A DNA stretch of 59,660 nt from an uncultured Sphingomonas sp. (GTDB lineage: Bacteria > Pseudomonadota > Alphaproteobacteria > Sphingomonadales > Sphingomonadaceae): assembly GCF_913778135.1 (NCBI RefSeq), contig NZ_CAJYVU010000013.1, positions 1-59,660 of the forward strand, read 5' to 3'. The notes beneath the pieces were generated by a model. That model had not been told where the DNA came from, made no database searches, and saw nothing but the letters and a program-made list of their open reading frames with translations. Position numbers and translations under genes: made by a program. Of the stretch, positions 11,101 through 25,654 are shown in pieces. Position 1 is the first letter of the stretch, and each line of letters opens with the position of its first letter.

Positions 11101-11273
11101 TGATGCTGGCGGGCGGCGCGAGCGCGGAGACGCAGCACGCAATCGGAACCGGCGTGTTCGGGGGCATGATCACGGGCACGCTTCTGGCGCTGGTTTTCGT
11201 GCCGACGTTCTTCGTGGTCGTGCTGGGACTGGCTGAGAAATGGCGCGCGCGGCGGGCGGGGCAGGTGCCATGA
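8163..11273 (+). CDS. RND multidrug efflux pump (HAE1 / AcrB-MexB type)
   Basis: 1036-residue inner-membrane proton-driven exporter of full family length. It opens with MPRFFIDRPVFAWVIAIAI, the standard HAE1 N-terminus. It has two repeats of a large periplasmic loop with membrane helices. GIIVDDAIVVVENVERLM in TM4 carries the two Asp residues of the proton relay, and GLSAKNAILIVEFAK in TM10 carries the matching Lys. It works with the adaptor upstream and the channel protein downstream. Its stop overlaps the start of the channel gene. Substrates cannot be read from sequence. Confidence 0.96.
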   Translation: MPRFFIDRPVFAWVIAIAIVLMGIIAIPQMPVARFPSVAPPTVSIYASYPGATPQTLNDSIVSLVQRELSSAKNLLYFESSADTSGSATITATFRPGTDPELAQVDVQNRLKTIEPRLPQVVRQTGVTVESAASGFLMIVSLLSDGRQDEVELSDYMTRNIVDELKRVPGVGRVQNFSAERAMRIWIDPAKLAGFGLTATDVTAAIAEQNVQIAPGALGAEPRNGGQRVLVPLTADGQLKTPEDFAAIILKSNTDGSSVTLDKVARIELGRQSFGNATRENGKVAASVGIQLTPGANAVAASKAVRERMAELSRALPQGMSWTAPFDTAPFVRISIEKVLHTLAEAMVLVFLVMYLFLQKVRYTLIPAIVAPIALLGTIAVMLATGYSINVLTMFGMVLAIGIIVDDAIVVVENVERLMHEEKLSPKDATRKAMDEITPAIIGITLVLSAVFIPMALAAGSVGTIYRQFAVAMAVSILFSAFLALTLTPALCATLLKPLEDAPRRNRFFTWFDDRFDRLTQRYQSWVARLLRASGRMMLVFVAIVGMLGLAFANLPSSFMPEEDQGYFMTSFQLPADATATRTLEAVQAYERHAATRPGIETTEAILGFGFSGSGPNAAMVFTMLKDWGDRGGTDVRKEVESADTAVAGAIHEGQVMSIMPPAIDELGTSSGFALRLEDRAGKGRQALFTARDLLIAHAARSTKLSSVYAEGLPAGTSVRLDIDRAKARALGVSFTAISDMIGTALGSSYVNDFPNQGRLQQVIVQADAAHRMNLDDVMRLRVKNAAGGTVPLTELVTPIWSNSPLQLASYNGYPSVSITGTAAPGTSSGDAMREMERLAAELPPGFAIEWTGQSLQERNAGAQAPMLLALSMLVVFLVLAALYESWSIPMAVLLVVPLGLIGAVAAVLLRDLSNDVFFKVGLITIIGLSAKNAILIVEFAKQYREAGSSLVDAAIAAARVRLRPIIMTSLAFTLGVMPLMLAGGASAETQHAIGTGVFGGMITGTLLALVFVPTFFVVVLGLAEKWRARRAGQVP

Positions 11274-12703
11274 TGATGCGCTCCATGATGCTCGCGCTGA
11301 TGCTGGCGAGCACTGCGGGCTGTTCGATGACGCCGAGGCTGGCTTTACCGACGCCCCCGGTCGCAAAAGCCTATCCGGTTGCGAGCGGACATGAACCGCT
11401 CCCGGCATGGCGCGGCATGTTCGGGGATCCGCGGCTGCAACGGTTGATCGCGCTGTCGCTCGATGAGAGCCGCGACTTGCGGATCGCGGCGCTCAACGCC
11501 GAAGCGGCGCGCGCGCAGGTGCGCGTCCAGCGCGCGCAGTCGCTGCCAGCCCTCAACGTCGATGCGGGCTATACGCGGCAGCGTCAGCCTGCCAGCGTAG
11601 CCGGTGCGGGCGTTGGCCTGACGCCCGGCACAGGGACGGGCACCGCGCCGACCGGGTACACCTTCGGGCAGTTCAGCGCGCAAACCGCACTGTCGAGTTT
11701 CGAAATCGATCTGTTCGGCCGCCTGCGTGCGCTCAACGAGGCAGCGTTCCACCGCTGGCTCGCGAGTAAAGAGGCGCGTCGTGCAGTGCAGCTTACGGTG
11801 ATCGGCGCAGTTTCCGACGCTTATTGGAACGAGCGGCTGGTCGACGAGCAGCTGGCGCTGACCGCGACGACGCTTGCGGACTGGCGGACCTCGCTCGACA
11901 TCACCCGTCGCCGCCACGATGCCGGACAGGCAAGCGGCATCGATCTGGCGCAGGCCGAGGGATTGGTGCGCCAGGCGCAGGCCGATCTGGCCGAGCGTGA
12001 GCGCGAGCGCGCGCAGGCGACGAATGCACTGACGCTCGCGGTCGGTGCCCCGCTGCCTCCCGATCTGCCTGTACCGGTTCCGCTGATCGACCAGCCGGTT
12101 CGCAACACCCTGGCGGCAGGTACGCCGTCGGAATTGTTGCTTCGCCGCCCCGACATCGCCCAGGCGGAGCAGGAGCTGCGCGCGGCCAATGCCGATATCG
12201 GGGCAGCGCGCGCCGCCTTCTTCCCGCGGGTGTCACTGACCGCAGCCTTTGGCTTTGCTAGTCTCGCGCTCGATACGCTGTTCCGGGGCGCCAACAGGTC
12301 CTGGTCCTACGCGCCGGCGATCAGCCTGCCGATCTTCCGAGGCGGTGAGCTAAGCGGCAGTCTCGACATCGCGAAACTGCGTACGTCCATCGCCGTCGCG
12401 ACCTATGAAAAGGCTATCCAGACTGGATTCCGCGAAGTCGCCGACGGCCTCGCCGCGCAGGCAACTTATGGCGCGCAGTTAACCGAGCAGCGCGCCGTGA
12501 TAACCGAGGCGGAACGCCGCCTATCGCTATCCAGCCTTGCCTATCGTGCTGGTCAGACGGACCGGCTCGAACTCCTAGACGCGCAGCGCGCGACCTATGC
12601 CGCACGGCAGACGGCACTGACCGTCCGTCGCGATCAACTAACCGCCGCCTCCGCGCTTTACCGCGCGCTGGGTGGCGATACTGCCCCTGAGGACATGCGA
12701 TGA
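11270..12703 (+). CDS. RND outer-membrane channel, NodT/OprM family lipoprotein
   Basis: 477-residue outer-membrane efflux factor. ATG at 11270 overlaps the pump gene's stop (ATGA). The signal sequence ends STAGC, an acceptable though imperfect lipobox, consistent with a lipid-anchored TolC-like trimer. Two OEP repeats are visible, with the typical RPDIAQAEQELRAANADIGAARAAFFPR segment between them (residues about 285-320; only the family feature is noted here) and LELLDAQRATYAARQ near the end. It completes the tripartite pump. Its stop overlaps the start of the cytochrome b561 gene. Confidence 0.93.
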   Translation: MMMRSMMLALMLASTAGCSMTPRLALPTPPVAKAYPVASGHEPLPAWRGMFGDPRLQRLIALSLDESRDLRIAALNAEAARAQVRVQRAQSLPALNVDAGYTRQRQPASVAGAGVGLTPGTGTGTAPTGYTFGQFSAQTALSSFEIDLFGRLRALNEAAFHRWLASKEARRAVQLTVIGAVSDAYWNERLVDEQLALTATTLADWRTSLDITRRRHDAGQASGIDLAQAEGLVRQAQADLAERERERAQATNALTLAVGAPLPPDLPVPVPLIDQPVRNTLAAGTPSELLLRRPDIAQAEQELRAANADIGAARAAFFPRVSLTAAFGFASLALDTLFRGANRSWSYAPAISLPIFRGGELSGSLDIAKLRTSIAVATYEKAIQTGFREVADGLAAQATYGAQLTEQRAVITEAERRLSLSSLAYRAGQTDRLELLDAQRATYAARQTALTVRRDQLTAASALYRALGGDTAPEDMR

Positions 12704-13248
12704 ACCAACGCCCCGATCGTTACCCGCTATCGATGCGTCTGCTGCACTGGATGCGCGCGGCATTGATCATCCCGCTTATCACGCTGGGATGGGCGATGAC
12801 CTCGCTGCCCGACAGCTTCGTTGCCAAGTCGGAATGGGCGTATCCCGTTCACAAGGAGTTTGGCGTGCTGGCCTTCCTGATCGGTGCGATCGCTCTCTTC
12901 GTTCGCCGACGATCTGCCGTGCCGCCGCATTCCGACGGTCTGGCGAGATGGGAAACGACACTGTCGACAATAGTGCAACATGTGATGCTGGCGCTCGCCA
13001 TCGTCGTGCCGCTGATGGGCTATGCGATGTCCAGTTCGTTCACGCAAAGCGACGGTGTGCCCTTCTTCGGCTTGGAGTTGCCGGAATTGCTCCCCAAGAA
13101 CGATCGGGCCTTTGCCGTCTTCGCGTGGACGCACAAGACGCTGGCTTACACCCTGCTTGCGCTGGTCGCGCTTCATGTCCTTGGCGTGCTCAAGCACCGC
13201 TTCCTTGATCGCGGACGGAACACCGACGTCCTGCCCCGCATGATATGA
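12700..13248 (+). CDS. Cytochrome b561
   Basis: 182-residue four-helix di-heme b-type cytochrome of the bacterial b561 (YodB-like) family. Candidate heme-ligand His residues are seen in RLLHWM, in TIVQHVML and in the C-terminal VALHVLG; YPVHKEFG and WTHKTLAY are also characteristic. Such proteins move electrons between quinols and periplasmic or membrane partners; some are superoxide:quinone oxidoreductases. It is tied to the efflux operon by ATGA overlaps on both sides, which is unusual for pump operons and suggests a shared oxidative- or redox-compound stress role. The direct partner is unknown. Confidence 0.9.
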   Translation: MNQRPDRYPLSMRLLHWMRAALIIPLITLGWAMTSLPDSFVAKSEWAYPVHKEFGVLAFLIGAIALFVRRRSAVPPHSDGLARWETTLSTIVQHVMLALAIVVPLMGYAMSSSFTQSDGVPFFGLELPELLPKNDRAFAVFAWTHKTLAYTLLALVALHVLGVLKHRFLDRGRNTDVLPRMI

Positions 13249-14507
13249 TGCCGGCCCAGACCACCGACGCGGCTGCGACGGCGCCGGCCGTCGACCCCGG
13301 TCCCGGCTGGCAATGGCGTTACGGGTCGATTTTCGGCGGTCAGGCGCTGTCGATGATCGGCTCCGCGATCACGCAGTTTGTGCTGATCTGGTGGATCACC
13401 GATACGACCCGGGATCTCGGCGCGCTGGCGACCGCCGGGCTTGCGGCGCTGCTGCCGCAGGCACTGCTGGGACCGCTCGGGGGGACGTTCGCCGATCGCT
13501 ACAGTCGCCGCCTGTTGATGATCGTCGCCGACCTGTTGGCGGCTGCGTGCGTCGTAGTCCTCATCGTGTTGTTCCTGATCGGGCAGGTCGCGCTGTGGCA
13601 CGTATACCTCGCAATGTTTGCGCGAAGCGCAGCGGGTGCATTCCAGATGCCGGCATCGTCCGCGAGCACGGCGATGCTGGTGCCACGCGGCTTCCTTCCC
13701 CGCGCAGCGGGGCTCAATCAGACGCTCATGGGAATTGTCACCGTTGCCGCAGCGCCGTTGGGCGCGCTGGCGATCACGGTGATGCCGGTCGGCATGGCGT
13801 TGTGGATCGACGTAGGGACCGCCGTCTTGGGGATAACGCCACTGCTGATCTTCGCGGTCCCGCAACAACGCGGAAAAGGCGAGAATTTAGGCCTGTGGGC
13901 GGAATTTCGCGAAGGCATAGCAGTGGTTCGGCAAAGCCCCCGGCTTTTGCGTATCTATGCGCTGCTGACCGCGGTGGTGTTGGTTATCATGCCGACCTTT
14001 ACGCTGCTGCCGTTGCTGGTGAAGCAGCATTTTGGTGGCGGGCCTGAACAGGTCGCCATCCTCGAAAGTGCTGGCGGAGCAGGAATGATCGCGGGCGGGG
14101 TGATCGTCGCCACGATCGTACCCAAGCGATTAGTCCGGTGGATCGTGTGGGGGTTTACCTTGTCCTGCGCGTCGCTCGCGGCGACTGCGCTGTTGCCGCC
14201 CGGATTATTCTGGCTCGCGACGATGATGTGGGCGATCAGCGGGATCACCTTCATTATGGGGGATGCGCCGTTCACCGCACTTATTCAGACCACGGTGCCC
14301 AACTGGTTGCAGGGACGCGTGCTGGCGCTGCTCGGCACGCTGATGGGTCTGGCTGCCCCGGTCGGCCTACTCGCTGCGGCTCCTCTAGGCGAAATCATCG
14401 GCGTTCGCTGGCTGTTCGTCCTGCTGGGCAGCGCGGGCACACTGGTCTGCTTGCTCGCCTTCGCATCAAAGAAGCTGCTGAGCGTTGAGAGCGGCATCCA
14501 CCAGTGA
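13245..14507 (+). CDS. MFS efflux transporter
   Basis: 420-residue major facilitator with about 12 hydrophobic segments, resembling the EntS/macrolide-exporter branch. The N-terminal half has GQALSMIGSAITQFVLIWW, and GGTFADRYSRRLLMIVADLL between TM2 and TM3 matches the conserved D-R-x-x-R-R loop. ATG at 13245 overlaps the cytochrome gene stop. As the last gene of the efflux operon it probably exports a toxic compound in parallel with the RND pump. Substrate unknown. Transposon debris follows immediately downstream. Confidence 0.9.
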   Translation: MMPAQTTDAAATAPAVDPGPGWQWRYGSIFGGQALSMIGSAITQFVLIWWITDTTRDLGALATAGLAALLPQALLGPLGGTFADRYSRRLLMIVADLLAAACVVVLIVLFLIGQVALWHVYLAMFARSAAGAFQMPASSASTAMLVPRGFLPRAAGLNQTLMGIVTVAAAPLGALAITVMPVGMALWIDVGTAVLGITPLLIFAVPQQRGKGENLGLWAEFREGIAVVRQSPRLLRIYALLTAVVLVIMPTFTLLPLLVKQHFGGGPEQVAILESAGGAGMIAGGVIVATIVPKRLVRWIVWGFTLSCASLAATALLPPGLFWLATMMWAISGITFIMGDAPFTALIQTTVPNWLQGRVLALLGTLMGLAAPVGLLAAAPLGEIIGVRWLFVLLGSAGTLVCLLAFASKKLLSVESGIHQ

Positions 14508-14614
14508 AGAGTGGCATTTGCGAAAGGGTTCGGCATCTTTTCGCTTGCTCGAAGTGGGGTATTGAAATCGTTCGACCCTGTTGAAAAAGGCTTGCTTGCG
14601 GCGGTGACGAGCGC

Positions 14615-14974
14615 GTGATCCACTTCTGCAAGGCGGAACAGACTCACGGACATCACGGGCCGGCGCGGTACGCCTACGCCATCAACCCGCTGCTCGACCG
14701 CGACACCGACCGCGTCCTCGACGTGGAGGCGACGCCCGCCCGCTTCGCAGCGAGGGTTGCGGCAAGCCAGGCGCTGGTGTCACGTGCCAGCACCAGGCTG
14801 GGCATTGAACCTGCCAGTCTCGCGGCTGACAAGGCCTATGGTAGTGATCCGCTGCTCGGCTGGCTACTCGGAACGCAACCTGAGGCTACGAAGGCTCAAG
14901 CTGCCGGACCTATCAGGGCTTATCATGGCAGTGATGCCATCGGAACGCTGACCGCGGGCGCAACCGGGACGTAG
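14615..14974 (+). pseudogene. IS transposase remnant (DDE, IS1182-like)
   Basis: The translation contains a block typical of IS1182/IS5-group DDE transposases: RYAYAINPLLDRDTDRVLDV, then ASLAADKAYGSDPLLGWLL, matching the region around the second catalytic Asp. The N-terminal part and the final catalytic Glu are absent, and after GWLL the frame loses similarity. It is therefore a short internal fragment, not a working insertion sequence. No inverted repeats were recognised at its edges. Confidence 0.65.
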
Positions 14975-14977
14975 GCG

Positions 14978-15174
14978 GTGAAGGAGTTGACCTGGCTGAG
15001 CAGCGCCGCAATGACGAACGAGCTCGTCGCCACCGGGCTGATCGATCTCCGAATCGCGGAAAGACGACCGCTGCGCGGTCGCGCTGACCATGATGCCTGC
15101 TGAACGACTTGGGCGACAGCGAGTGCGCCACGCTGATCGCGCTCCTTGAATGGATTGAACGCGCTCGGATCTGA
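14978..15174 (+). pseudogene. MarR-family regulator remnant, frameshifted
   Basis: Three adjacent frames together recreate the C-terminal half of a MarR regulator. First is LSSAAMTNELVATGLID (recognition helix and start of the wing), then in the next frame RKDDRCAVALT (the wing DxRxxxVxLT signature), then DSECATLIALLEWIERARI ending at 15174. At least two indels separate the pieces and no N-terminal dimerisation region is present. It is a dead fragment next to the transposase remnant. Confidence 0.55.
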
Positions 15175-15690
15175 TCAACAACCGTCAGGCATCCTGCGGC
15201 TTGCCACGAAGGGCAAGATCGCACCTATTGCTGCGATCCGCACTTGGCTTGGCAGATGCCTGGACATTCCCCCGCTGGAGCTGCTGCGCCGGGACAATGC
15301 GGCGCGGGACTGGTGACCTTCCGCTCGCTCATCTCGCAAGTTATCGCTTTGCTCGCCGGACAGGTCACGCCTTTCGCCCCGGCACGGTTCTGTGACGCGC
15401 TTACCATCGACATCGCTGCCGCTGCGGCGACGCTGATTGCGTCGCGCACGCCGACGACGGCATGTACGCGGTACGGGCGTAGCCGCACATTATGGCGGCG
15501 CTGCCGCGCTCCGCAGCATGCCCTGACGGTGAGCAGGCGGCGTGGGCTTGAGCGTCTAACCCAACCAGGGTCAGGTCGACCTGCCTTCGACACATCCCGC
15601 CCCAGCAGAAGCGAACCGATCTCGTTCCGATGGTGGTGCCGTGGTGTCCCGAGCGTTCACACCCCGGCAGAAAATATGCTAAGTTTCAAA
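15175..15690. other. Gene-poor debris between IS remnant and attachment site
   Basis: No intact gene. A short plus-strand frame ending at 15316 has a protein-like sequence with GILRLATKGKIAPIAAIRTW and ELLRRDNAARDW but no start codon or ribosome site, so it looks like another gene end. The longer open frame covering 15244-15762 has non-protein-like composition and runs into the tRNA fragment, so it is not called. Confidence 0.3.
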
Positions 15691-15694
15691 GAAA

Positions 15695-15740
15695 TGGTGC
15701 TGCCGGTGAGGATTGAACTCACGACCTCAGCCTTACCAAG
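15695..15740 (-). other. tRNA-Thr(GGT) 3' half, attachment-site (att) copy
   Basis: Read on the minus strand this is the 3' half of a threonine tRNA: the anticodon loop TTGGTAA (anticodon GGT), the anticodon 3' stem GGCTG, a TpsiC arm with GTTCAATCC, and the acceptor 3' end ending CACCA. The bases 5' of the loop (GGGAC) cannot pair with GGCTG, so the 5' half is missing and this is not a functional tRNA. A 3' tRNA end next to an integrase gene is the classic duplicated attachment site. The intact tRNA would be expected at the element's far end and was not found in this window. Confidence 0.75.
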
Positions 15741-15888
15741 TCCCGGCCCGCGGTTTCCGTGACTTACCATCGCTTACCGCCACTGGGTTTTCCCGATAAA
15801 AACAGTCATTTAGATGGACGTCCCCTTACCTTGGCATACCGTGGGCTTCCGCTGCGGTGCTTGCCAGGTGATTGCCAGGACAGCACCA

Positions 15889-16587
15889 ATGACGATCCCG
15901 ACGACGCCCGATTCCAAGAGCCTCACCGACACCCCCACCGTCATTAACAAGAAGTTCCTGAACGCGCTCGAGACGCCATCGCGGGAAGAGGGACGGCAGA
16001 TCCACTGGGACGCCCAACTCAAGGGCTTCGGCATCCGCGTCAATCCCAGCGGAAGCATCGTCTTCGTGGTCCAATACCGCACTCGCGCCGTCGGCGCGAA
16101 GACGCAGACGCTAACGATCGGGAAATACGGCTCGCCCTGGTCCCCCGATGCGGCACGGGCGGAAGCTCGCGCGGTTCTCGAGCAGGTCCACCGCGGAGGC
16201 GACCCCATCGCCGAGCGGCGAAGCCGGGAGGCCGATGAGCAGGCAGCGGTCGCCTCGGAAAGCCACCACGACTTCGATGCGTTCGCCGACCGCTACATCG
16301 AGAAGCACGTCAAGGCGAACGGATTGCGCAGCCTCAAGGACGTCGAGGGGACGTTCAACCGCGACCTGCGCCCCTTCTTCAAGGGCAGGTCGGTGCGCGA
16401 GATCACGAAGCAGGACTGCAAGGACATGCGCGCGGCGGTGGGGGACCGCAGCCACTCGGCCGCCAACAAAGCGCATAAATGGCTCAACGCTTCATTCATG
16501 TGGGGAATCGAGCATGACGGGCTCGACGCCAACCCGATGTTCGGCCTGCGCAAGCCGATCGCCGATGAGAGTTCGAACAGATGCTAG
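15889..16587 (+). pseudogene. Tyrosine integrase, C-terminally truncated
   Basis: 232 residues from ATG 15889 (weak CCAGGA site upstream). The arm-binding DUF4102-type domain is present (INKKFLNALET, then LKGFGIRVNPSGSIVFV and LTIGKYGSPWSPDAARAEA), followed by the core-binding SAM-like domain (FADRYIEKHVKANGLRSLKD to ASFMWGIEHDGLDANP). The chain stops at ANPMFGLRKPIADESSN, just where the catalytic domain should begin, so all of the Arg, His-x-x-Arg and Tyr residues are missing. It is the P4-type integrase of the tRNA-Thr element, inactivated by loss of its last ~170 residues. Confidence 0.85.
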
Positions 16588-16893
16588 CTGTGTTAAGCAA
16601 AAACCGTGTCTTATTAGCTGCCTAGATTTTCTCACCGCATTTTACTCGGATTTATATCCGAATCGGTCAAATCGCGCGATGTTTTAGAACGCGGCTCGGG
16701 CCGCGCGCATTCGTGTGCGCCCGCGGCTATGGCGAGCTCACATGCTTAGCATGCGGGGTTCAAGCGGACGTGGTCGGCTCTGTCGACGGCGCGAGGATCA
16801 TGCTTTGATTGATCCTTTACGAAGAGCGCTTTAGCCGGGCGAGTGTTCAATCATCCGCTTGAGAATGGTCGGTTCGGTCACCGCCACCGCTGC
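16588..16893. other. AT-richer intergenic stretch with hairpins, no gene
   Basis: About 300 bases with lower GC than the surroundings. A 6-bp stem, TCGGAT/ATCCGA with a TTAT loop, lies at 16646-16661, and a small CATGC/GCATG hairpin lies near 16741-16755. No coding frame is convincing. It is the likely 3' junction of both the truncated integrase and the minus-strand ATPase operon, and may hold a terminator for the latter. Confidence 0.35.
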
Positions 16894-18657
16894 CTACGCC
16901 TCGGCAGCGGCTTTCGAGAGCACCGCGCGCAACATCTCGTCACATCCCACCACACGCGCGATCGCGATGAGCGGGGCAAAGATCTCGTCGTGGCGATTGC
17001 GCACGTCCGACCTAGCCAAGTCGTATGCATCGGCTACTTTGCCAATCCGGCTCATGGCGAACGCGTGCGCCGCATCCCGCCAAGCCGCTACGTTGAAATC
17101 GACCTTGCACGCGTCGAACGCACTATCAGTCGAAACGCTAGTAGGGACTCGTATAGCCCGTGATGCCAGGATGGGGTCCAGGCCGAGCGTGTTTGACACC
17201 AAGCGGGGCCCGAAGAAGTCTATGGCCTCAGTTCGCCCACCGGGCATCGTCAGGATCTTGGTAGCCGTCAGCTGCTTGTAGCCTTGCTTTAAGGCTTGGC
17301 CCATCTCACCGCCTCCGGCAACCAGCGTCTCGGCATCGTCTAGCGCCACAAGGCCACCAGTCTCCCTGACGAGCCTCACGAGCGCAGCCGCAGAGCCTTG
17401 GGCCATGGTCTGTCCGTTAAAGGACATTGTGACTATCGTAGTCGTCAGATCCGATTTGCCACTTCCACGCTCGCCGTGAAGATGAATGATCGGCAGGGCA
17501 TCGAACAGGCGAAAAAAATACGTTGCGAAGATGAATGTGGTCAGCGCCCAGTAGTCATCGGCGCAGGGCAGCCGCGCTACGTCGCGCAGTCCTGCCGCGG
17601 CCTGTTCTGCGAGAGTCCTGGGGTCAGTGCGACAGGGATCTTCTCCGGCCTTGCGGTCAGCGACGAACTGCCGAATGCCTGCCAACGACCACGAGCAATA
17701 GTGACCTGGGTCCTGGATCGGGTTGATCCGGGTTCCATCCGAAAGCGAATGGACGCGCCGGTGAGTTGGCGTGCCAGCCGGCGCGGGTAGAACCCTAGCC
17801 TCAAGAAGCGTCCCGTCCGACCGTAACACGATGGTATGGTATTGGTGAAGGACACGGTCCGACCTGCCTCCTTCGGCGGCTCGTCGGCGTTCTACGGTGA
17901 ACGCATAGAAGCTCCGTGCGTCCTTGACGCCACCATGCACGGAGATCGGCTTTGCCGCAAAGTCACCCGACTCCCGGGTGAGGTCGCCCAAAAGATCGTC
18001 GTTCTCCAATTCCTCCGGAGCTGCGTCGTCAAGAATTTCTACCAGCCGAGTGGACATCGACAAGTCGTCTGGCCACTCATCGGCCACAAAGGTCGTACGG
18101 CTTCGTTCGACCGGCCTCTGCGCCACGCGGATGATCGCCGCGGCGCAAGCAGAAGCCACCCCGGCGGTGACTACCACCCTCGCGCGCCCCATCCAGTGAC
18201 TCGGATCCAGCCACGCCGCCGGTATCCGGCCCGGTTGGCTCGAGCATTCCGCGACGACGTCGATTTCCCCACCCACCGCCGCCCTCTGCGCCTGCCAGAC
18301 TTCGATGGCGCTCGCGCATATCAGAACGATCTGCCCGTTCTCGCCGGACGAGATCACCTCGGGCGCACCAGGTCCCCACCCAATCGGATTTTCGGGATTG
18401 ACGGTCATGCCAGGGAGATTCAGATAGGCATACCGCCGACGAGCGCTCTCGCTCCCGACAGGGAATGCAAGGACGTTCTCCGTTCTCGTGCCATCGGAGC
18501 GGCGGTAGGGCTCCTTCATGCCCAGTCCGACCAGATGCACCGTGGCTTCGTCGATGCCCATAGCGGCCAGCATCGCCATCGCTTTCGGATTGCGGTGCAG
18601 ATTGCTGGAGAGGCGGCGGAAGTTGCTGCCTATCTGGCTGCGGGCAGCGGCGGTCAC
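16894..18657 (-). CDS. Toprim-like/P-loop ATPase, primase-helicase-like element protein
   Basis: 587 residues, GTG start at 18657 behind GGAGG with 6-base spacing. Residues ~105-180 resemble a Toprim-type fold (GQIVLICASAIEVWQAQRA, then VVVTAGVASACAAAI). A central domain (240-330) is not recognised. A P-loop ATPase follows, with Walker A GERGSGKS at 395-402 and a Walker B-like GGLVALDDAE at about 434-443. This layout recalls replication or primase-helicase proteins of phage satellites and integrative elements. It lies 63 bases after the metallophosphoesterase gene on the same strand, so they are probably co-transcribed. The exact family is not identified; the Toprim assignment is moderate. 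Confidence 0.65.
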   Translation of the reverse strand: MTAAARSQIGSNFRRLSSNLHRNPKAMAMLAAMGIDEATVHLVGLGMKEPYRRSDGTRTENVLAFPVGSESARRRYAYLNLPGMTVNPENPIGWGPGAPEVISSGENGQIVLICASAIEVWQAQRAAVGGEIDVVAECSSQPGRIPAAWLDPSHWMGRARVVVTAGVASACAAAIIRVAQRPVERSRTTFVADEWPDDLSMSTRLVEILDDAAPEELENDDLLGDLTRESGDFAAKPISVHGGVKDARSFYAFTVERRRAAEGGRSDRVLHQYHTIVLRSDGTLLEARVLPAPAGTPTHRRVHSLSDGTRINPIQDPGHYCSWSLAGIRQFVADRKAGEDPCRTDPRTLAEQAAAGLRDVARLPCADDYWALTTFIFATYFFRLFDALPIIHLHGERGSGKSDLTTTIVTMSFNGQTMAQGSAAALVRLVRETGGLVALDDAETLVAGGGEMGQALKQGYKQLTATKILTMPGGRTEAIDFFGPRLVSNTLGLDPILASRAIRVPTSVSTDSAFDACKVDFNVAAWRDAAHAFAMSRIGKVADAYDLARSDVRNRHDEIFAPLIAIARVVGCDEMLRAVLSKAAAEA

Positions 18658-18720
18658 TTCAAACCTCCACTACCAAGCTCTTCGTCCTGCTGCGAAAATG
18701 CGAAATGCGAAGACTCGACC

Positions 18721-20436
18721 TCATCCATGGAACCGGTCGCCGTGATAGAAGAGGTGCTGGCGGGCACCATTCCAATACGTGATCACGTGAGCGATAGCCC
18801 ACGCGGTGAGCGGGCCCTTGGCGTATCCGAGCTCAGTCTGGCACACCCCGCTGGACCAAATGCCTCCGCGCGTGGTGGGCCTATGCGTGTGACCGATGGT
18901 GGCGCGAATGCCTAGGTTCTCGACGCTTTGCATGCCGCCCTTGCGTCCATCGGGGCCCTTGTCTCCGTGAATACCCATCTAAATCCCCGCCACCTTGTAG
19001 CTCTCGCCGTTCCGAAGGAAATGCACTCCCTGCAGCTCATCCGCGGCGAGATCCCGCAGCGTTGCCTCGAAGAACCCTTCCGAGTCCTCGCCGCGTGCGA
19101 GCCGCTCATGTAGAGCGAGTGCGCATCTCAGGAAGAAAATTGCGTTCGCCGGATCGTCCCGGAAATCAGTCTCCCGAAGCCAATGCCCGAACATGGCGTC
19201 GTGGTTGGAGGCAACGACCAGCGACGTGCACCACGGGCGTGAGGAGACGGAGAGAAATCTCGCAGCCTGCTCCATCTCCGCGCCCACGTTCCCACCCCCG
19301 TTCGCAAACTGGGCGAACCGACGGAGGTGGTTACGGGCGTCGAAAGGGCTTCGTGCCGAGAAGTCGCAGACGTCGTGGAAGATCTGCCGTCTCGGACGAA
19401 GTAGGTCGACGAGGGATTTGGCGGTTGGGTCCTTTGCGCCAATTCCCCAGGTCGCCGCCGCCACTTCCGCATCGAGACTGGAGTGGTGAATATCGCCGAA
19501 GTTGATCGCCTCGACCCCACAGCCGCGTTTGATGGATCCGCCTTCGACGCGGACTGCGAGATCCTGGAACGATCCGTCCCCGTCGACAGGCGCGAGGATG
19601 TGGCGGCAATGACCCACCCCGTCACTAGACAATTCCACGATCACGGCCCCGAGTTCCTCGCGCGATCCGGGGATGGCTGACCGGTGCGGAAGAGTCATAG
19701 CGCCCGTCGTGAGCTGCACGCGAAGGCCGTCGGCACGGATGCGCGGCATCGTCTCGAGCTGGATGACCGCATGAGGCACGACGGTCCAAACAGCGGATCT
19801 GCAGCCCTTCACGCTACCCAGAGGACGTGTGGCTCGCGGATGGACGCTTACGTTAGTGGCAACCTCCACCTGGTCCTCGAGATCGACCGGGCTCGCCCAC
19901 AAGAAGTCTATAACTACCGGATCGACGTCGCCGTCGCCAATCTTCACCACCATCAGCTCGGCGTTCAACCAGTTGGCGTATGCGAGCACGTTGCGGAGGA
20001 ACGCCTCGTGGGTGGGTGTTCCCGCCTCGGCACATGTGATGATCATCCTGGTGACGCCGGCGGTGGGGGCGTCGACCTTGCGGCGGGTCGGTTCGGACGA
20101 TCGCACCTCTCGCATAGGCGTCGGACGGGCCGCGACATCTACCTGCGGGTGCATGGCCGGCCGTCCGCCCGCCTTTCGACGATTGACGCCGAAGCGAGTA
20201 ATGACGTCCCCCTTCAACATGGCTTTCAACGGCGGCGGGGAAAATCCCTGATCCCGCAGCTTATTTCGCTGATACTGGACCAACGTCTCCCGAACCGTGA
20301 TCTGGGAAACGCCCATCATCCGAGCCACCTCCGACATCGACTGGTGTCGAACATACAGGCTGTATACGGTAGCCTGACGTTCGGTCACGAACGTCGTCCG
20401 GCTCGTCTTCGTGGATGCCGTGCCGTTGGTGGACAT
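18721..20436 (-). pseudogene. HTH-calcineurin-like metallophosphoesterase, interrupted by in-frame TAG
   Basis: A single reading frame of about 571 residues, interrupted only by TAG at 18981-18979. The start is ATG 20436, with AAGGAG upstream. The N-terminus has a helix-turn-helix (MSEVARMMGVSQITVRETL). The rest carries metallophosphoesterase motifs in order: NFGDIHHSSLDAE, FHDVCDFSARSPFDARNH, VVASNHDAMFGHWL (the GNHD-type motif), then after the stop HGDKGPDGRKG and ATIGHTHRP (the GHTH motif). Because the last metal-binding motif lies beyond the TAG, both parts are needed for activity. The junction reads VAGI-stop-MGIHGD. A single GAG-to-TAG change would explain it; suppression or restart at the ATG directly after the TAG is also possible. 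It lies upstream of the ATPase gene on the same strand. Confidence 0.7.
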
Positions 20437-20524
20437 GCCTCTCAACGCTCCTTCTTTAATGACTGGGTTCCACGACGTTCAGCGACGATCGAATGGATGC
20501 GTCGTCGATTATGACGGCGTGCGC

Positions 20525-20946
20525 CTAGCCCTTCCACGGCACCTGCAACGCCACGCGAACGGCATCGAAAGCGAGCGACGATGCTCCACCGACCTGCGCG
20601 GCACCCGGAATGACGAAGTCGCGGCCACTAAGCAGCGGATGGAGGACGCGCGCACCCGGCATGCCGACAGCGTCCGCGCGGTCGACCGCGTTAAGAATGC
20701 TCATCTTTGCCTCCCGGGTAAGATGCGTTTGTGGCGGAGACGGCACAGCTTGGGATTTCCACTGCGACGGGGGCGATGCGGCCGATCGCACGTCAGTTGT
20801 CGGCACCAGCTCGTCGGCCGCTTTGTCGGCGTCGAGCGGATCGGGAAAGATGCCGCGCTTTTCCTCGCGCGGCAGGTGCGCCGTGAAGCCGTCGCGTGCG
20901 TGGACGTCCTGGCCGGCATCGAACCGCTGACGGTGATCGCATCCAT
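20525..20946 (-). CDS. Hypothetical element protein, apparent frameshift
   Basis: ATG at 20946 follows GGAGG and opens MDAITVSGSMPA. From about 20915 the coding signal (GC-rich third positions, acidic residues) moves to the next frame, reading DVHARDGFTAHLPREEKRG and running without stops to TAG at 20525. An internal ATG at 20704 has its own GGGAGG site and gives a 59-residue frame (MSILNAVDRADAVG). Either a ~140-residue protein carries one indel near 20905-20920, or only the 59-residue product is made. First gene of the minus-strand element module. No family recognised. Confidence 0.45.
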
Positions 20947-21029
20947 CGGTTCCTCCAGGTCGTCGCCGTCTGTAGGTCGCCGAACGGCGGCCTACAGCGA
21001 CACACAGCAGATAAGAATTCTACGATTAT

Positions 21030-21057
21030 AATTCAATAGTTCTCGTATTATTGAATT
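21030..21057. promoter_or_regulatory. Inverted repeat, candidate ArsR operator
   Basis: Perfect 9-base arms AATTCAATA and TATTGAATT separated by 10 bases, in a markedly AT-rich stretch 69 bases before the arsR start. ArsR/SmtB regulators bind AT-rich inverted repeats of ATTCAAT type overlapping their own promoters, so autoregulation is the likely role. It also lies upstream of the divergent minus-strand module. Confidence 0.5.
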
Positions 21058-21125
21058 TGTGTGGCTAAATTCAGCGGGGCTTGGATCGGCGTCTCCGCCG
21101 CGCGTATCGGAATGGAGTGAAGAAG

Positions 21126-21429
21126 ATGCAGGCCGTACAAGTCATGAGCGCGCTGGCGCAGCAGACCAGGCTCGATATCTACAAGCTGCTGGTCGAGCAT
21201 CTGCCCCAAGGAGTGGCCGCGAGCGACATCGCGGACGCGGTCGGCATGTCGCGCAACGGCACCAGCCCGCATCTGGCGATCCTCTCAGCCGCCAAACTCG
21301 TTTCCGCAAGAAAGGGGGGGGGGGCAGGTGATCTACAAGGCGGAGATGCAGGTGGTGGAGGGCCTCGCGCGATTCCTATCGCAGCCCGTTGAACGCGATT
21401 GTGAGGGAGTTGCGAACCTAGACTGGTGA
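21126..21429 (+). pseudogene. ArsR-family regulator, frameshifted at an 11-G run
   Basis: ATG 21126 behind GGAGTGAAGAAG starts a typical ArsR winged helix: MSALAQQTRLDIYKLLVEHL, then SDIADAVGMSRNGTSPHLAIL and AAKLVSARK. At 21314-21324 there are eleven consecutive G residues. As written the frame goes wrong after the run. Removing one G restores QVIYKAEMQVVEGLARFL and a stop at 21427-21429, giving a normal ~100-residue ArsR. The run may be an assembly error, a fixed mutation or a phase-variable switch. There is no vicinal arsenic cysteine pair in the recognition helix, so the signal may not be a metal. Confidence 0.75.
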
Positions 21430-21586
21430 GCGCGTCTCCATCGCGGCGACCGCTGCCAAGCAGCAGACACCGCTCGACCCCCAGGCATCCAACCGGCTCG
21501 GCTGACCCCGCCGGTGACTTCACCTGCGGTCGTGCGTTAAAACACAGGTCTTTCTCTGGTTGCCGCCAGATGAAAGACTTGGTGAT

Positions 21587-21694
21587 ATGTTTCTGCATCG
21601 CGACGCGCCGGCGCTGACGCCGATTCAGTTTGCACGAGCGATCGAAATGGTCGACTTCGGCAATCGGCCTCGTCGTCCTACAACGACCGCATGA
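21587..21694 (+). CDS. Possible small ORF coupled to the next gene
   Basis: Short frame of at least 35 residues (MFLHRDAPALTPIQFARAIE and onward) whose stop overlaps the ATG of the 456-residue gene as ATGA, a layout usual for real co-translated pairs. The same frame stays open upstream to about 21518 and reads VFLWLPPDERLGD, so the true start may be earlier (TTG at 21560). No family and no good ribosome site was recognised. Confidence 0.3.
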   Translation: MFLHRDAPALTPIQFARAIEMVDFGNRPRRPTTTA

Positions 21695-23061
21695 TCAGCT
21701 CCTTCTGCGAACATAATCAACCCGATGAGGTGCGGTCCGAGCGGGTCCGCTCGTTGCTGGAGCACGCCGTCGGCGAGGCCCGGACGCCCACTGGAACCCC
21801 GGTGTGGCGCGCGTTGCACGACCTTTTCTTGACGGAGGCGCGGTTACGTGGCGCCGGGTTGGTCGAGGAAGCCTGGCTGGGACTCGATAGACCTGCGGTG
21901 CGCCGCCTAGCCGCGCGTTTCGACCGGCTCTTCTTCGGTCGTGGCGGCAGACGCTGCAGGCTGCCGGGTGGTGCGCTAATGGGTTCTGTTGGTCCAAGCG
22001 TCGGCTTCGTGGACGATCAGACCTTGAGCTTCGACGTCGACGAACCAGGGCTTCATCGGACCCAGGATCTACCGAAACGACCCGGCGGGTCGAACCTCTC
22101 TCTCCTTCTACGAGAAGTCGATCTCCTCTGTCGGGATCGGCCCTGCGGTGCCATCGGACGTCCGGCACTCGTTGAAAGGTTCATCGCGGGAAATTGGCGC
22201 TACTGTCTGCAGTGGCCGCCGTTCGCTCCGGCCGGTGGCGTGTTACTCGTACATTCCTTGAACTCGACCTCGCGCGGAATCTTCTGCGCGCTCACCGCTG
22301 GCGAGGTCGAGACCATCGCCGCGGACGTGGTCGACGAAATGGCTGATCTGTGGACCAACGATCGGGTGATCGCCGCGCGGGTGTGCGAGGCGAGCGATGC
22401 GGCTCGACGAGTGGCGACGACGCTGGACGGGGTCCGCTTTCGATGCGTGACGGTGCAGCTGAATGATCACGTGCCCTTCAGCCCCGTTGAGCTTTGCGTA
22501 GAATTCGACGCCATCGACGACGCTCTTCGACAAGGAACCGTGATGCAGGTCATCCGATCCGCACAGGCGCCTGGTAAGGCGGTCGGCATGCACGGGCTTC
22601 TCCGTTCGCTGGAGCTCGAGACGCTGCGCCATGCGGGAGCCGATGGACGCATCGACGAAATGGCTCTGTCGATCGCACTCGTTTCGACGGACGGTCTATC
22701 CTCCCTGCTCGTTCGACTCGCCGAGAAGTACGAGGTGTTCGCCGATGTCGCGGTGCCCTCGGGTCTTCAACGCTACAAGCTGTTCTGGTGCGACGGGATC
22801 ATCCACGCCTCGAGTTGGGACGCAGGCCGTCTTCACGTTTGGAAGAACGAGATACGCGTTGAGGGTGAGCAAATGCCTGCGACCGTCTTGGCTGCCCTCA
22901 GAGGTAAACCGCTGTACCGGTTGTTCGACTCGCCTTTCAGATGTAGCGCGCTCATTCGATCGGCTATCGATTATGGGACCTTTATTGCGGTCGAAACGGA
23001 GGTTGGTTCGCAACTCGTCAACTGCGTTGAAGGTAAGGTCTTTACTCGATCGCCTTCGTGA
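21691..23061 (+). CDS. Unrecognised 456-residue protein
   Basis: Intact frame starting at ATG 21691, overlapping the stop of a small upstream frame. It has no signal peptide and no membrane helices and looks cytoplasmic. Features seen: an alpha-helical N-terminus (SERVRSLLEHAVGEA), a Trp/aromatic patch (GNWRYCLQWPPFAPAGG), an acidic stretch VETIAADVVDEMADLW, and a beta-rich C-terminal third (KYEVFADVAVPSGLQRYKL to SQLVNCVEGKVF). No catalytic motif or P-loop is visible. Position between a broken arsR and a sugar-catabolism locus suggests accessory cargo of the integrated element. Function unknown. Confidence 0.6.
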   Translation: MISSFCEHNQPDEVRSERVRSLLEHAVGEARTPTGTPVWRALHDLFLTEARLRGAGLVEEAWLGLDRPAVRRLAARFDRLFFGRGGRRCRLPGGALMGSVGPSVGFVDDQTLSFDVDEPGLHRTQDLPKRPGGSNLSLLLREVDLLCRDRPCGAIGRPALVERFIAGNWRYCLQWPPFAPAGGVLLVHSLNSTSRGIFCALTAGEVETIAADVVDEMADLWTNDRVIAARVCEASDAARRVATTLDGVRFRCVTVQLNDHVPFSPVELCVEFDAIDDALRQGTVMQVIRSAQAPGKAVGMHGLLRSLELETLRHAGADGRIDEMALSIALVSTDGLSSLLVRLAEKYEVFADVAVPSGLQRYKLFWCDGIIHASSWDAGRLHVWKNEIRVEGEQMPATVLAALRGKPLYRLFDSPFRCSALIRSAIDYGTFIAVETEVGSQLVNCVEGKVFTRSPS

Positions 23062-23413
23062 ACGCTTCGGCGAGTTCGTAAGTATATATCGATGTCGCCT
23101 CTCGGTGCGCCTCGTTCAGGGTCGACCGGCTGGCGGTGGAGAACTCCTTCGTCGCCGCAACGAAGCGTCGGGTCTGATAAGTCGGTTCCCGCATCTTCTG
23201 CCCTTGGCACTCGCCGATCTGATCATCAGACGATTGTCTGTTTGTGGTGGATAGCCGCCTGTCCGTTATCTAGGGATGCTTGCCATGGTCGGCCGTTTGT
23301 TCAGGAAGTAGCTTGAAAACACAAGCGCTTGATGTGTTTAGAAGCGGAGCATTTGCTATTTGCGGGCGGAACAAGGTTAGAATGATCGCCTTGCGTCCGC
23401 CGTATTTTAGTTC
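23062..23413. other. Gene-free stretch holding repeat copy A
   Basis: About 350 bases without a convincing gene, between the unknown element protein and the end of a GH3 gene on the minus strand. The only structure recognised is the ~65-base sequence at 23246-23310, which recurs near 39285. The rest is of lower GC than its neighbours and may contain the 3' end of the GH3 transcript. Confidence 0.4.
23246..23310 (+). repeat. Dispersed ~65-bp intergenic repeat, copy A
   Basis: Shares with copy B (39285-39350) the block GGTGGAWAGCCGCCTGTC at one end and GCCGTTTGTTCA about 30 bases later, in the same orientation and at nearly the same spacing; the middle is diverged. No coding potential. The two copies lie at the left and right edges of the 23.4-39.1 kb catabolic locus. 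Confidence 0.55.
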
Positions 23414-25654
23414 TCAACGCTTGTTGCGAGTTGGGTCGCGAAGAGTGGCGTCGTGCCAACGACGCGCTGGCAAATGTATAGTTACGGGTTTGCTCAACTC
23501 TCCCGCTGACGAGCCGCTTGCGAAAGAATAATCATCTGCCGGCATCGTCCAGCCGGTATTCTGCCAATCGGCGAGTAGCCGTGGATCAATCGCAATTGTT
23601 ATCGTTCGCGACTCGCCGGGCGCGAGTTCAACGCGACCATAACCGACCAGCCGCTGCTTGATCTTGCCGCCGCGCTTGGTGAGGTAAAGCTGCCCCACGG
23701 TTGCGCCGGGGCGTTGGCCGGTGTTCGTGATGTTGATCGTCGCATTGGTGCCGTTCATGCGCGGCACGCCAATTGCGAAGCTGGTGTAGGACAGGCCGTG
23801 TCCGAACGGGAACAACGCCTTGTACCCGTTGCGCGCGTTCCAGCGGTAGCCAACGTCCGATCCCTCGATGCCGTAATCGGCGTCGAGCTTCATGTCGCCG
23901 TGCGGCGGATTGCCCGCGAAATCGGGTTCGAGCGCGTCGAAACCGTCGACCGACGTACGCGGTAACTGGTCGATCGATGCCGGGAAGGTGATCGGCAGAT
24001 GGCCCGAGGGATTGACCTTCCCGAACAATACCGCGGCAATCGCCTCGCCGCCGCGCGCGCCGGGGTACCACGCCTCTACCACCGCCGCGGTTCGGTTAAG
24101 CCACGGCATCAGCACGGGACCACCCGTTTCCAGCACCACGATCGTGTTCGGATTGGCGCGCGTCACCGCGTCGATCAGCGCATCCTGTCCGTTCGGCAGC
24201 GACAGGTCCGGCTGGTCGAGCCCCTCGGTCGACCACTGCGTGGCGAAGACGATCGCGACATCGGCCTGCTTCGCCTGTGTCACCGCATCGGCGATGTAGC
24301 GGCCATCGCGGAAGTGGAAGTCCGCTTGTGGCGCGAGCGCCTTCATCGCATCGAGCGGGACCGAACGCTGGTAGGATTGCGAGAGAAAGGCGGAGAACGG
24401 ATCGGTGCCGCCGAGCGGGATAGACAGCGCCGGCCCTGCCGCGCCCTGCACCTGGCTCGAGCCCGCACCCGACAGGACGCCGGTGTTGGCATATCCGCCG
24501 ATCACTGCGATCCGCTTCGCCGAAGCGGCGAGCGGCAGCGCGTTGCGTTCGTTGCGCAAGAGCACGATACCCTGCTTCGCGACCTCTTCGGCGACCTGCG
24601 CGTTGGCTGTCGCATCGATCGCACCGCCCGCGCGCGCGGGAAAGCGGTCGAGCCCGTTGTCGTAGATCGCCCACAGGATGCGACGGTTCATGTCGTCTAG
24701 CCGCGTTCTGTAGGCAGGGTCGCTAGCGGCGGCAGCGGCTAGCCTGTCGGCGAAGAACACCGCTTTGTCGAGCTGCGCACCCGATTGCTGGTCGAGCCCC
24801 TTAAGCGCGGCATCGAGGCTCGGCACCGCGCCCCAGTCGGACATGACGAAGCCCTGGTAGCCCCAGTCCTGCTTGAGCACGCGATTGAGCAGCCAATCGC
24901 TCGCGCACGCCTGTTCGCCGTTCACCTGATTGTAGGCGCACATCACCGACCCGGGATTGCCGATCTCCATGCCGATGCGAAACGCAAGCAGATCGCTCTC
25001 GCGGGCGGCGGCTTCGGAAATCTTCGAGTTGACGAACTTTCGTCCGGTCTCCTGACCGTTGAGCGCGAAATGCTTGATCGTCGAGATGATGTGGTTCGAC
25101 TGGATGCCGCGGATCGCGTGCCCCACCAGCGTGCCGGCGAGCAGCGGGTCTTCGCCCAAATACTCGAAATTGCGACCGTTCCGCGGATCGCGCAGCAGGT
25201 TGACGCCGCCCGCCAGCAGGACGTTGAACCCCTTCGCGCGAGCCTCACCGCCGATCATGCGCCCGCCCTGCTCGATCAGCGCATCGTTCCAGGTCGATGC
25301 CATTGCGAGGCCGGAGGGAAGGGCGGTTGCGCCGTCCTTGCGAATGCCGCCGACCCAGGCGACGCCCAGGCTGGCATCGGTTTCGCGCAGCGACGGCACG
25401 CTTAGCCGCGGGACGCCCACGACATAGCCCGCGCCCGCGATCGCATCGGCGGGCAGCTTGGGCGGGTTGGGGCCGAACGGCAGCGGCATGATGCCGTGGG
25501 TGAGAATGGTCTTCTCCTCCATCCGCATCTTGGCCAGCGTCGCATCGGCGCGTGCGCTCGCCTGATCGGGGGGCGGCGCCTCGCGCGCGGTAGCGGCATC
25601 GGCGGCGAGCACGAGCGCGAGCGCGGAGCAGAGCGACAGCCTGTGACGAGTCAT
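23414..25654 (-). CDS. GH3 family beta-glucosidase, secreted
   Basis: 746 residues from ATG 25654, preceded by GGGAGAACCAC. A signal peptide ends near ADAATARE. The GH3 TIM barrel includes GFNVLLAGGVNLLRDPRNGR and NHIISTIKHFALNGQE (the KH pair that binds substrate). The nucleophile Asp is in GFVMSDWGA (about residue 273). The (alpha/beta)6 sandwich domain begins IVLLRNERNALPL, and a fibronectin-III-like C-terminus contains FPFGHGLSYTSF. It is expected to remove beta-linked glucose or xylose from oligosaccharides in the periplasm. Last gene of the minus-strand cluster, 32 bases after the PF20091-type hydrolase. Confidence 0.94.
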   Translation of the reverse strand: MTRHRLSLCSALALVLAADAATAREAPPPDQASARADATLAKMRMEEKTILTHGIMPLPFGPNPPKLPADAIAGAGYVVGVPRLSVPSLRETDASLGVAWVGGIRKDGATALPSGLAMASTWNDALIEQGGRMIGGEARAKGFNVLLAGGVNLLRDPRNGRNFEYLGEDPLLAGTLVGHAIRGIQSNHIISTIKHFALNGQETGRKFVNSKISEAAARESDLLAFRIGMEIGNPGSVMCAYNQVNGEQACASDWLLNRVLKQDWGYQGFVMSDWGAVPSLDAALKGLDQQSGAQLDKAVFFADRLAAAAASDPAYRTRLDDMNRRILWAIYDNGLDRFPARAGGAIDATANAQVAEEVAKQGIVLLRNERNALPLAASAKRIAVIGGYANTGVLSGAGSSQVQGAAGPALSIPLGGTDPFSAFLSQSYQRSVPLDAMKALAPQADFHFRDGRYIADAVTQAKQADVAIVFATQWSTEGLDQPDLSLPNGQDALIDAVTRANPNTIVVLETGGPVLMPWLNRTAAVVEAWYPGARGGEAIAAVLFGKVNPSGHLPITFPASIDQLPRTSVDGFDALEPDFAGNPPHGDMKLDADYGIEGSDVGYRWNARNGYKALFPFGHGLSYTSFAIGVPRMNGTNATINITNTGQRPGATVGQLYLTKRGGKIKQRLVGYGRVELAPGESRTITIAIDPRLLADWQNTGWTMPADDYSFASGSSAGELSKPVTIHLPARRWHDATLRDPTRNKR

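Follow-up and report, generated by a model that had tools for sequence, protein, structure and literature searches.

A single amber codon interrupts an otherwise open gene on a Sphingomonas contig, raising the question of whether the gene is broken, encodes an enzyme in two parts, is read through or has been misread in the assembly. The window, that is, the whole stretch of DNA analysed here (59,660 nucleotides), is the entire contig C13 of a 3.33-Mb draft assembly of 203 contigs. On its minus strand, the frame running from the ATG at 20436 to the TGA at 18723–18721 is open throughout except for one TAG, and the codon immediately following this TAG is an ATG (18978–18976). The sequence and its translation agree in this respect with the initial annotation of the locus. 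We consider that the stop is a recent inactivating nonsense mutation, and that the gene is a young pseudogene of phage T5 A1 type in a decayed mobile island (probability about 0.84).

Both parts of the interrupted frame matched the same profile, PHROG 1745 ('DNA transfer protein', phage T5 A1; 542 positions), with E = 3.4e-77 for the 485-residue part and E = 6.5e-19 for the 85-residue part. Since the matched profile positions are consecutive (Table 1), the two parts were originally a single gene. A whole-profile search of the source genome reported a single PHROG 1745 match with '1 TAG' inside, and the genome search gave one copy of the A1-like gene. The two-part reading is therefore not due to chance, because both parts fall in one family and the whole-profile match crosses one TAG. 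The homologues also support the earlier view that the protein was once one chain. In alignment A3, which comprises 24 sequences (the window protein and 23 phage, plasmid and bacterial homologues), the 23 other rows are single open frames, and the relatives from the genus were without inner stops in 10/10 cases.

The gene is a member of the phage T5 A1 family located in a chromosomal island, encoding an N-terminal helix-turn-helix (HTH) followed by a calcineurin-like metallophosphoesterase. The conserved elements GDIHH, HDVCD, SNHD, HG and GHTH, which we take to be motifs I–V of the metal site, occur in the order required by the calcineurin-like superfamily, and the set is complete only when both parts are counted. 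The initial annotation had placed the stop just before the last metal-binding motif; the three motifs upstream of the stop are as it described, but two motifs (HGDKG and GHTH), not one, are severed. The profile match extends over most of the length of PHROG 1745, while the single uninterrupted chain with all phosphoesterase motifs is lost; as the TAG lies between motifs III and IV, the window gene represents a broken copy of a PHROG 1745 member and not a working one.

Table 1. Positions of the A1-like gene, its motifs and neighbouring elements in the window
Feature	Position	Strand	Remarks
IS1182-family transposase remnant	14615..14974	+	Positions 256–343 of a 488-position model; score 26.9 bits against a cut-off of 270
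Exact 49-bp copy of the tRNA-Thr(GGT) 3' end	15692..15740	-	46 gene bases and 3 flanking bases; adjoins the integrase
Tyrosine-integrase remnant	15814..16587	+	Arm-binding and central domains matched; catalytic domain absent
Partner gene, 587 aa	16894..18657	-	DnaG-like N-terminal half and MCM-like AAA+ C-terminal half (predicted structure)
Downstream part, 85 aa, from the TAG-adjacent ATG to the TGA	18721..18978	-	PHROG 1745 positions 457–534; last two metal-site motifs
Motif V, GHTH, residues 515–518 (numbered through the stop)	18883..18894	-	Downstream of the stop; H518 invariant
Motif IV, HG, residues 490–491 (numbered through the stop)	18964..18969	-	Downstream of the stop; H490 and G491 invariant
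In-frame TAG	18979..18981	-	Occupies a column that is Glu almost throughout the A1 family
Upstream part, 485 aa	18982..20436	-	HTH, linker and metallophosphoesterase motifs I–III; PHROG 1745 positions 68–455
Motif III, SNHD, residues 410–413	19198..19209	-	N411 and H412 invariant in 24 sequences
Motif II, HDVCD, residues 354–358	19363..19377	-	D355 invariant in 24 sequences
Motif I, GDIHH, residues 314–318	19483..19497	-	D315 and H317 invariant in 24 sequences
N-terminal helix-turn-helix, residues 19–62	20251..20382	-	Pfam HTH matches weak, below cut-offs; three helices in the predicted model

The window protein gave no match to Pfam Metallophos, which was matched by only one of the 24 family members (E = 1.7e-4). 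We compared its predicted structure (mean pLDDT 71.8, falling below 50 at residues 491–546) with known folds. The model aligned with Vps29 (Z 10.1, rmsd 3.6, 147 residues aligned), LpxH (Z 7.9, rmsd 4.7, 162 aligned) and PolD (Z 7.6, rmsd 4.7, 184 aligned); the comparison tool (VIA) gave Z of 7.3 to 10.1 in the rows shown, and values below 8 may reflect a mere common arrangement. The top Foldseek matches were likewise phosphoesterases, yet all had E above 0.001. Structural comparison of the model thus points in the same direction as the phosphoesterase assignment, without being decisive. When solved structures were searched with an A3 profile, a 3-dehydroquinate dehydratase was returned (E = 0.0022), which we regard as a chance match. 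Two stretches of the model of 18724–20436 (minus strand) aligned to phosphoesterase folds, residues 126–293 to Vps29 and PP5 and residues 305–568 to LpxH and PolD, and the A1-like protein might accordingly be predicted to combine a degenerate first phosphoesterase domain with a catalytic second one. A PADLOC defence-system scan gave no match for the four A1-like entries submitted. Genes of this kind serve phage T5 in the takeover of its host, although the mechanism of A1 is, to our knowledge, poorly defined. A1 has been assigned a part in host DNA degradation and in second-step DNA transfer (PMC13250531, PMC7472727).

Which residue did the TAG replace? The stop falls on a column occupied by a nearly invariant Glu, four residues ahead of the motif IV His. 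This Glu was found in all nine full-length relatives from the genus (encoded by GAA in four and by GAG in five), in 21 of the 23 other A3 sequences (Asp in Vibrio phage Achelous and Arg in Rhodobacter phage RcRhea being the exceptions) and, among 95 public loci on genome and viral contigs, in all but two, which have Leu (L186) and Ser (L188). The presence of Glu in the relatives is consistent with a single substitution, such as the GAG-to-TAG change proposed in the initial annotation. For the public data, a single-sequence scan of genome_contigs and viral_contigs gave no close relatives, while a scan with alignment A2 reached 15 loci in genome_contigs and matched 159 times in viral_contigs, 80 of these matches being retained; the resulting 95 loci are redundant, as they include many T5-like phages and genus relatives found again, with 47 different local contexts printed. 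The context of the stop column in L188, a viral contig, is unlike that of the family, owing to misalignment, a frameshift or a real variant.

The stop itself was shared by none of the nine full-length genus relatives and by none of the 95 public loci. Naturally split homologues, a possibility raised at the outset, were also not encountered, the aligned stretch being interrupted by a stop codon in 0/95 loci. Within the class, PHROG 1745 was matched in four of 385 genomes including the source genome, and the other three copies have no inner stop. Three homologues annotated as two features, those of Caulobacter BL57, Brevundimonas Marchewka and Rhizobium RHEph08, were considered as split genes, but each proved to be one A1-like gene that overlaps an adjacent feature. 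A second damaged A1-like gene was observed in the genus, in genome G157 (L021, about 9650–10171), in which N- and C-terminal pieces lie some 80 bases apart and the middle was not found.

We analysed the conservation on the two sides of the stop. When the window sequence was left out of alignment A2, 78 columns were identical in the other nine relatives, and the window protein was changed in three of these (L to V, V to I and R to H). Compared with the four nearest relatives, the window copy differed at 37 of 194 conserved columns upstream of the stop and at 7 of 42 downstream, whereas the next most divergent sequence, L004, differed at 26 of 183 upstream of the stop position and at 6 of 41 downstream. 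On either side of the stop, the window copy diverged more than any of the other four, but not disproportionately past the stop, and the third-position G+C content was nearly equal in the two parts (0.744 and 0.741). The C-terminal part has either had no time to drift or is still in use. Because the conserved residues downstream of the stop are kept, the nonsense event looks recent, one of the two possibilities (recent or tolerated) supposed from the intact motifs.

The ATG adjoining the TAG offers another reading, in which ribosomes terminate at the TAG and restart at this ATG, and the resulting 85-residue C-terminal chain restores the metal site by assembling with the N-terminal one. No Met occurs at this position in the 23 other sequences of the A3 table, and the TAG-adjacent ATG is therefore particular to the window among those sequences. 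Pairing with the 16S tail has a duplex energy of −7.9, among the best 12% of the 1596 ATGs in the window, indicating a fair Shine–Dalgarno match, and the C-terminal part is kept. However, the Shine–Dalgarno-like stretch doubles as coding sequence of the upstream part, the stop lies inside the phosphoesterase-aligned stretch of the predicted model (residues 305–568), much of the 85-residue piece is of low confidence in that model (pLDDT below 50 at residues 491–546), and split homologues were found at 0/95 loci. Restart is consequently very unlikely. An extended form of this reading is improbable to a like degree: the TAG–ATG junction would be used to produce a low-dose two-chain enzyme, thereby reducing the amount of a host-damaging nuclease, within an undescribed integrative element that has its own primase/helicase-like protein. 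If it were true that truncated and restarted chains rebuild the enzyme, the stop would matter. Decoding of the TAG by a near-cognate or suppressor tRNA, often enough to provide some full-length enzyme, would also account for the equal conservation of the two flanks of the stop, and bacterial genes with in-frame stops that keep dN/dS below 1 have been reported (PMC7918605). Against such readthrough, the stop is shared by no relative examined, and within the window TAG seems to serve as a normal terminator, closing six other ORFs of at least 200 aa (by a simple selection rule). These include the partner gene described below and AtuA, in which the Pfam match stops three residues ahead of the TAG. 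The suppressor tRNA suggested in the initial annotation did not appear in a whole-genome search: none of the 42 tRNA genes above the cut-off, all of which were also called by ARAGORN, has a CTA anticodon, and neither of two sub-threshold candidates was called by ARAGORN. Asn, Ile-GAT, Ser-GCT and Ala-TGC tRNAs, which a bacterium would be expected to have, are absent from this set; the set is therefore incomplete, and a suppressor was possibly missed. The C-terminal part of pyrrolysyl-tRNA synthetase (PylS) gave no match in the source genome, in a search that returned some match in 13 of 14 control genomes and a match above the cut-off in only one of them. Efficient suppression is probably absent, and we regard readthrough as highly improbable.

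A sequencing or assembly error, by which the true codon would be a sense codon and the gene intact, fits the otherwise intact frame and the draft state of the 203-contig assembly. Single wrong bases are nonetheless generally rare in consensus assemblies and the island carries other, larger damage, and we regard an error as very unlikely. The preferred explanation, a recent nonsense mutation, is compatible with the account of Belinky et al. (2021), who argue that many bacterial in-frame stops are tolerated for short times (PMC7918605).

The larger damage lies in the surroundings of the gene, which is apparently part of an integrative island in decay. The tyrosine integrase is truncated, and no continuation was obvious by eye in the three plus-strand frames up to 16893. 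The adjoining 49-bp tRNA-Thr copy, whose counterpart (C103:10509–10557) belongs to an intact tRNA-Thr(GGT) gene on contig C103, is a probable attachment-site copy, and its orientation would fit an island that extends to the right and has this copy next to its integrase. A fragment of an ArsR/SmtB-type regulator at 21081–21392 (plus strand), covering positions 2–61 of a 77-position model just under the cut-off, is possibly a further sign of decay. No phage structural family was matched by the ten window proteins scanned, which represent part of the window ORFs, and a search of window positions 12000–25000 against Rfam gave three matches with E from 0.22 to 0.73, all under the gathering score. 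In such a decaying island, a nonsense mutation would cost little.

Past the intact tRNA gene, contig C103 carries an ArsR-like gene and ORFs resembling an IS transposase by eye. The ArsR-like genes of C103 and the window contig are 68% identical over 165 bases, and near the tRNA the two contigs match at 90% over 30 columns. We considered whether C103:1–10509 forms the opposite end of this island, but the contigs could not be joined; the C103 region past the tRNA is perhaps that opposite end.

The A1-like gene has a recurrent partner. In the window this partner follows it on the same strand after a gap of 63 bases. The window partner protein had no Pfam match at the cut-off and no NCBIfam match, none of six partner members matched PHROG at E up to 0.1, and the scan of viral_contigs found no relatives. 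Of three partner proteins scanned with PADLOC, two matched weakly (E = 0.0077 and 0.047) and the third did not match. On the basis of a predicted model (mean pLDDT 68.2, pTM 0.51), residues 2–309 aligned with DnaG primase cores (Z 12.6, rmsd 5.4, 208 aligned) and residues 323–587 with MCM helicases (Z 10.8, rmsd 3.9, 200 aligned), and Foldseek also gave an MCM match (E = 1.1e-6). An invariant Ser-Ser-Gln occurs at residues 139–141 of the DnaG-like half (gene at 16897–18657, minus strand), presumably about where a primase is expected to carry acidic residues; the primase domain may therefore be degenerate.

Among 295 genomes of the genus, the A1-like gene was detected in 11, in one of them as a fragment, and the partner was matched in nine, clearly in eight and weakly in one (G238, E = 6e-4). 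The two genes occurred together and close to each other in seven genomes (the window and L008, L009, L010, L011, L019 and L020), separated by about 0.1–0.3 kb in three relatives and by 3–4 kb in divergent orientation in three others. Neither gene always accompanies the other: in G130 and G852 the partner had no A1-like gene in its vicinity, and G264, G037, G021 and G157 carried an A1-like gene but no partner. The chance figure for this co-occurrence is 7e-11, a value that ignores relatedness and leaves out the weak match in G238. Large serine-recombinase-like genes lie near three of the pairs, at 10548–12245 (minus strand) in L011, 11081–12868 (plus strand) in L019 and 13504–15219 (plus strand) in L020, as identified by Pfam (Resolvase and Recombinase) for L011 and judged from the N-terminal sequence for L019 and L020. 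The co-occurrence in seven genomes suggests that the pair is a functional module. We infer that the pair may be linked to mobile-element replication, and the module could be an integrative replicon or a phage satellite of an undescribed kind. The recurrent pair may matter more than the stop codon, as the module reading would give T5 A1 relatives outside lytic phages.

Taken together, the inactivating nonsense mutation would have arisen by a recent substitution that converted a nearly invariant Glu codon into TAG. Ribosomes would halt after residue 485, leaving a product without metal-site motifs IV and V, and since these motifs are missing, the truncated product would presumably have no catalytic activity. 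The copy would then be a young pseudogene, and the mobile island around it no longer has a working integrase either. The truncated integrase and nearby IS1182 remnant, together with the second damaged copy in G157, argue for this explanation; the well-kept residues on both flanks of the stop, which equally fit a tolerated or used stop, the fair Shine–Dalgarno match at the adjacent ATG and the incomplete tRNA set argue against it. In itself the stop codon matters little, being a single nonsense mutation, and a young one, in a gene of a mobile island.

The window gene can be compared with several known systems. With the in-frame stops of Belinky et al. (2021; PMC7918605), it shares a single stop in an otherwise conserved gene, whereas the TAG of their worked example occurs in several genomes and the window TAG in one. 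With the calcineurin-like metallophosphoesterases Vps29, LpxH, PolD DP1 and Mre11, it shares metal-site motifs in the same order. With T5 A1 and PHROG 1745, it shares the profile match across both parts and the phosphoesterase motifs common to the 23 homologues, including A1 of an Escherichia T5-like phage (L085). In contrast to these phage genes, the window gene is interrupted by a TAG and has a primase/helicase-like gene next to it on a bacterial contig, and its HTH is located outside the match to T5-like phages, which begins near residue 130.
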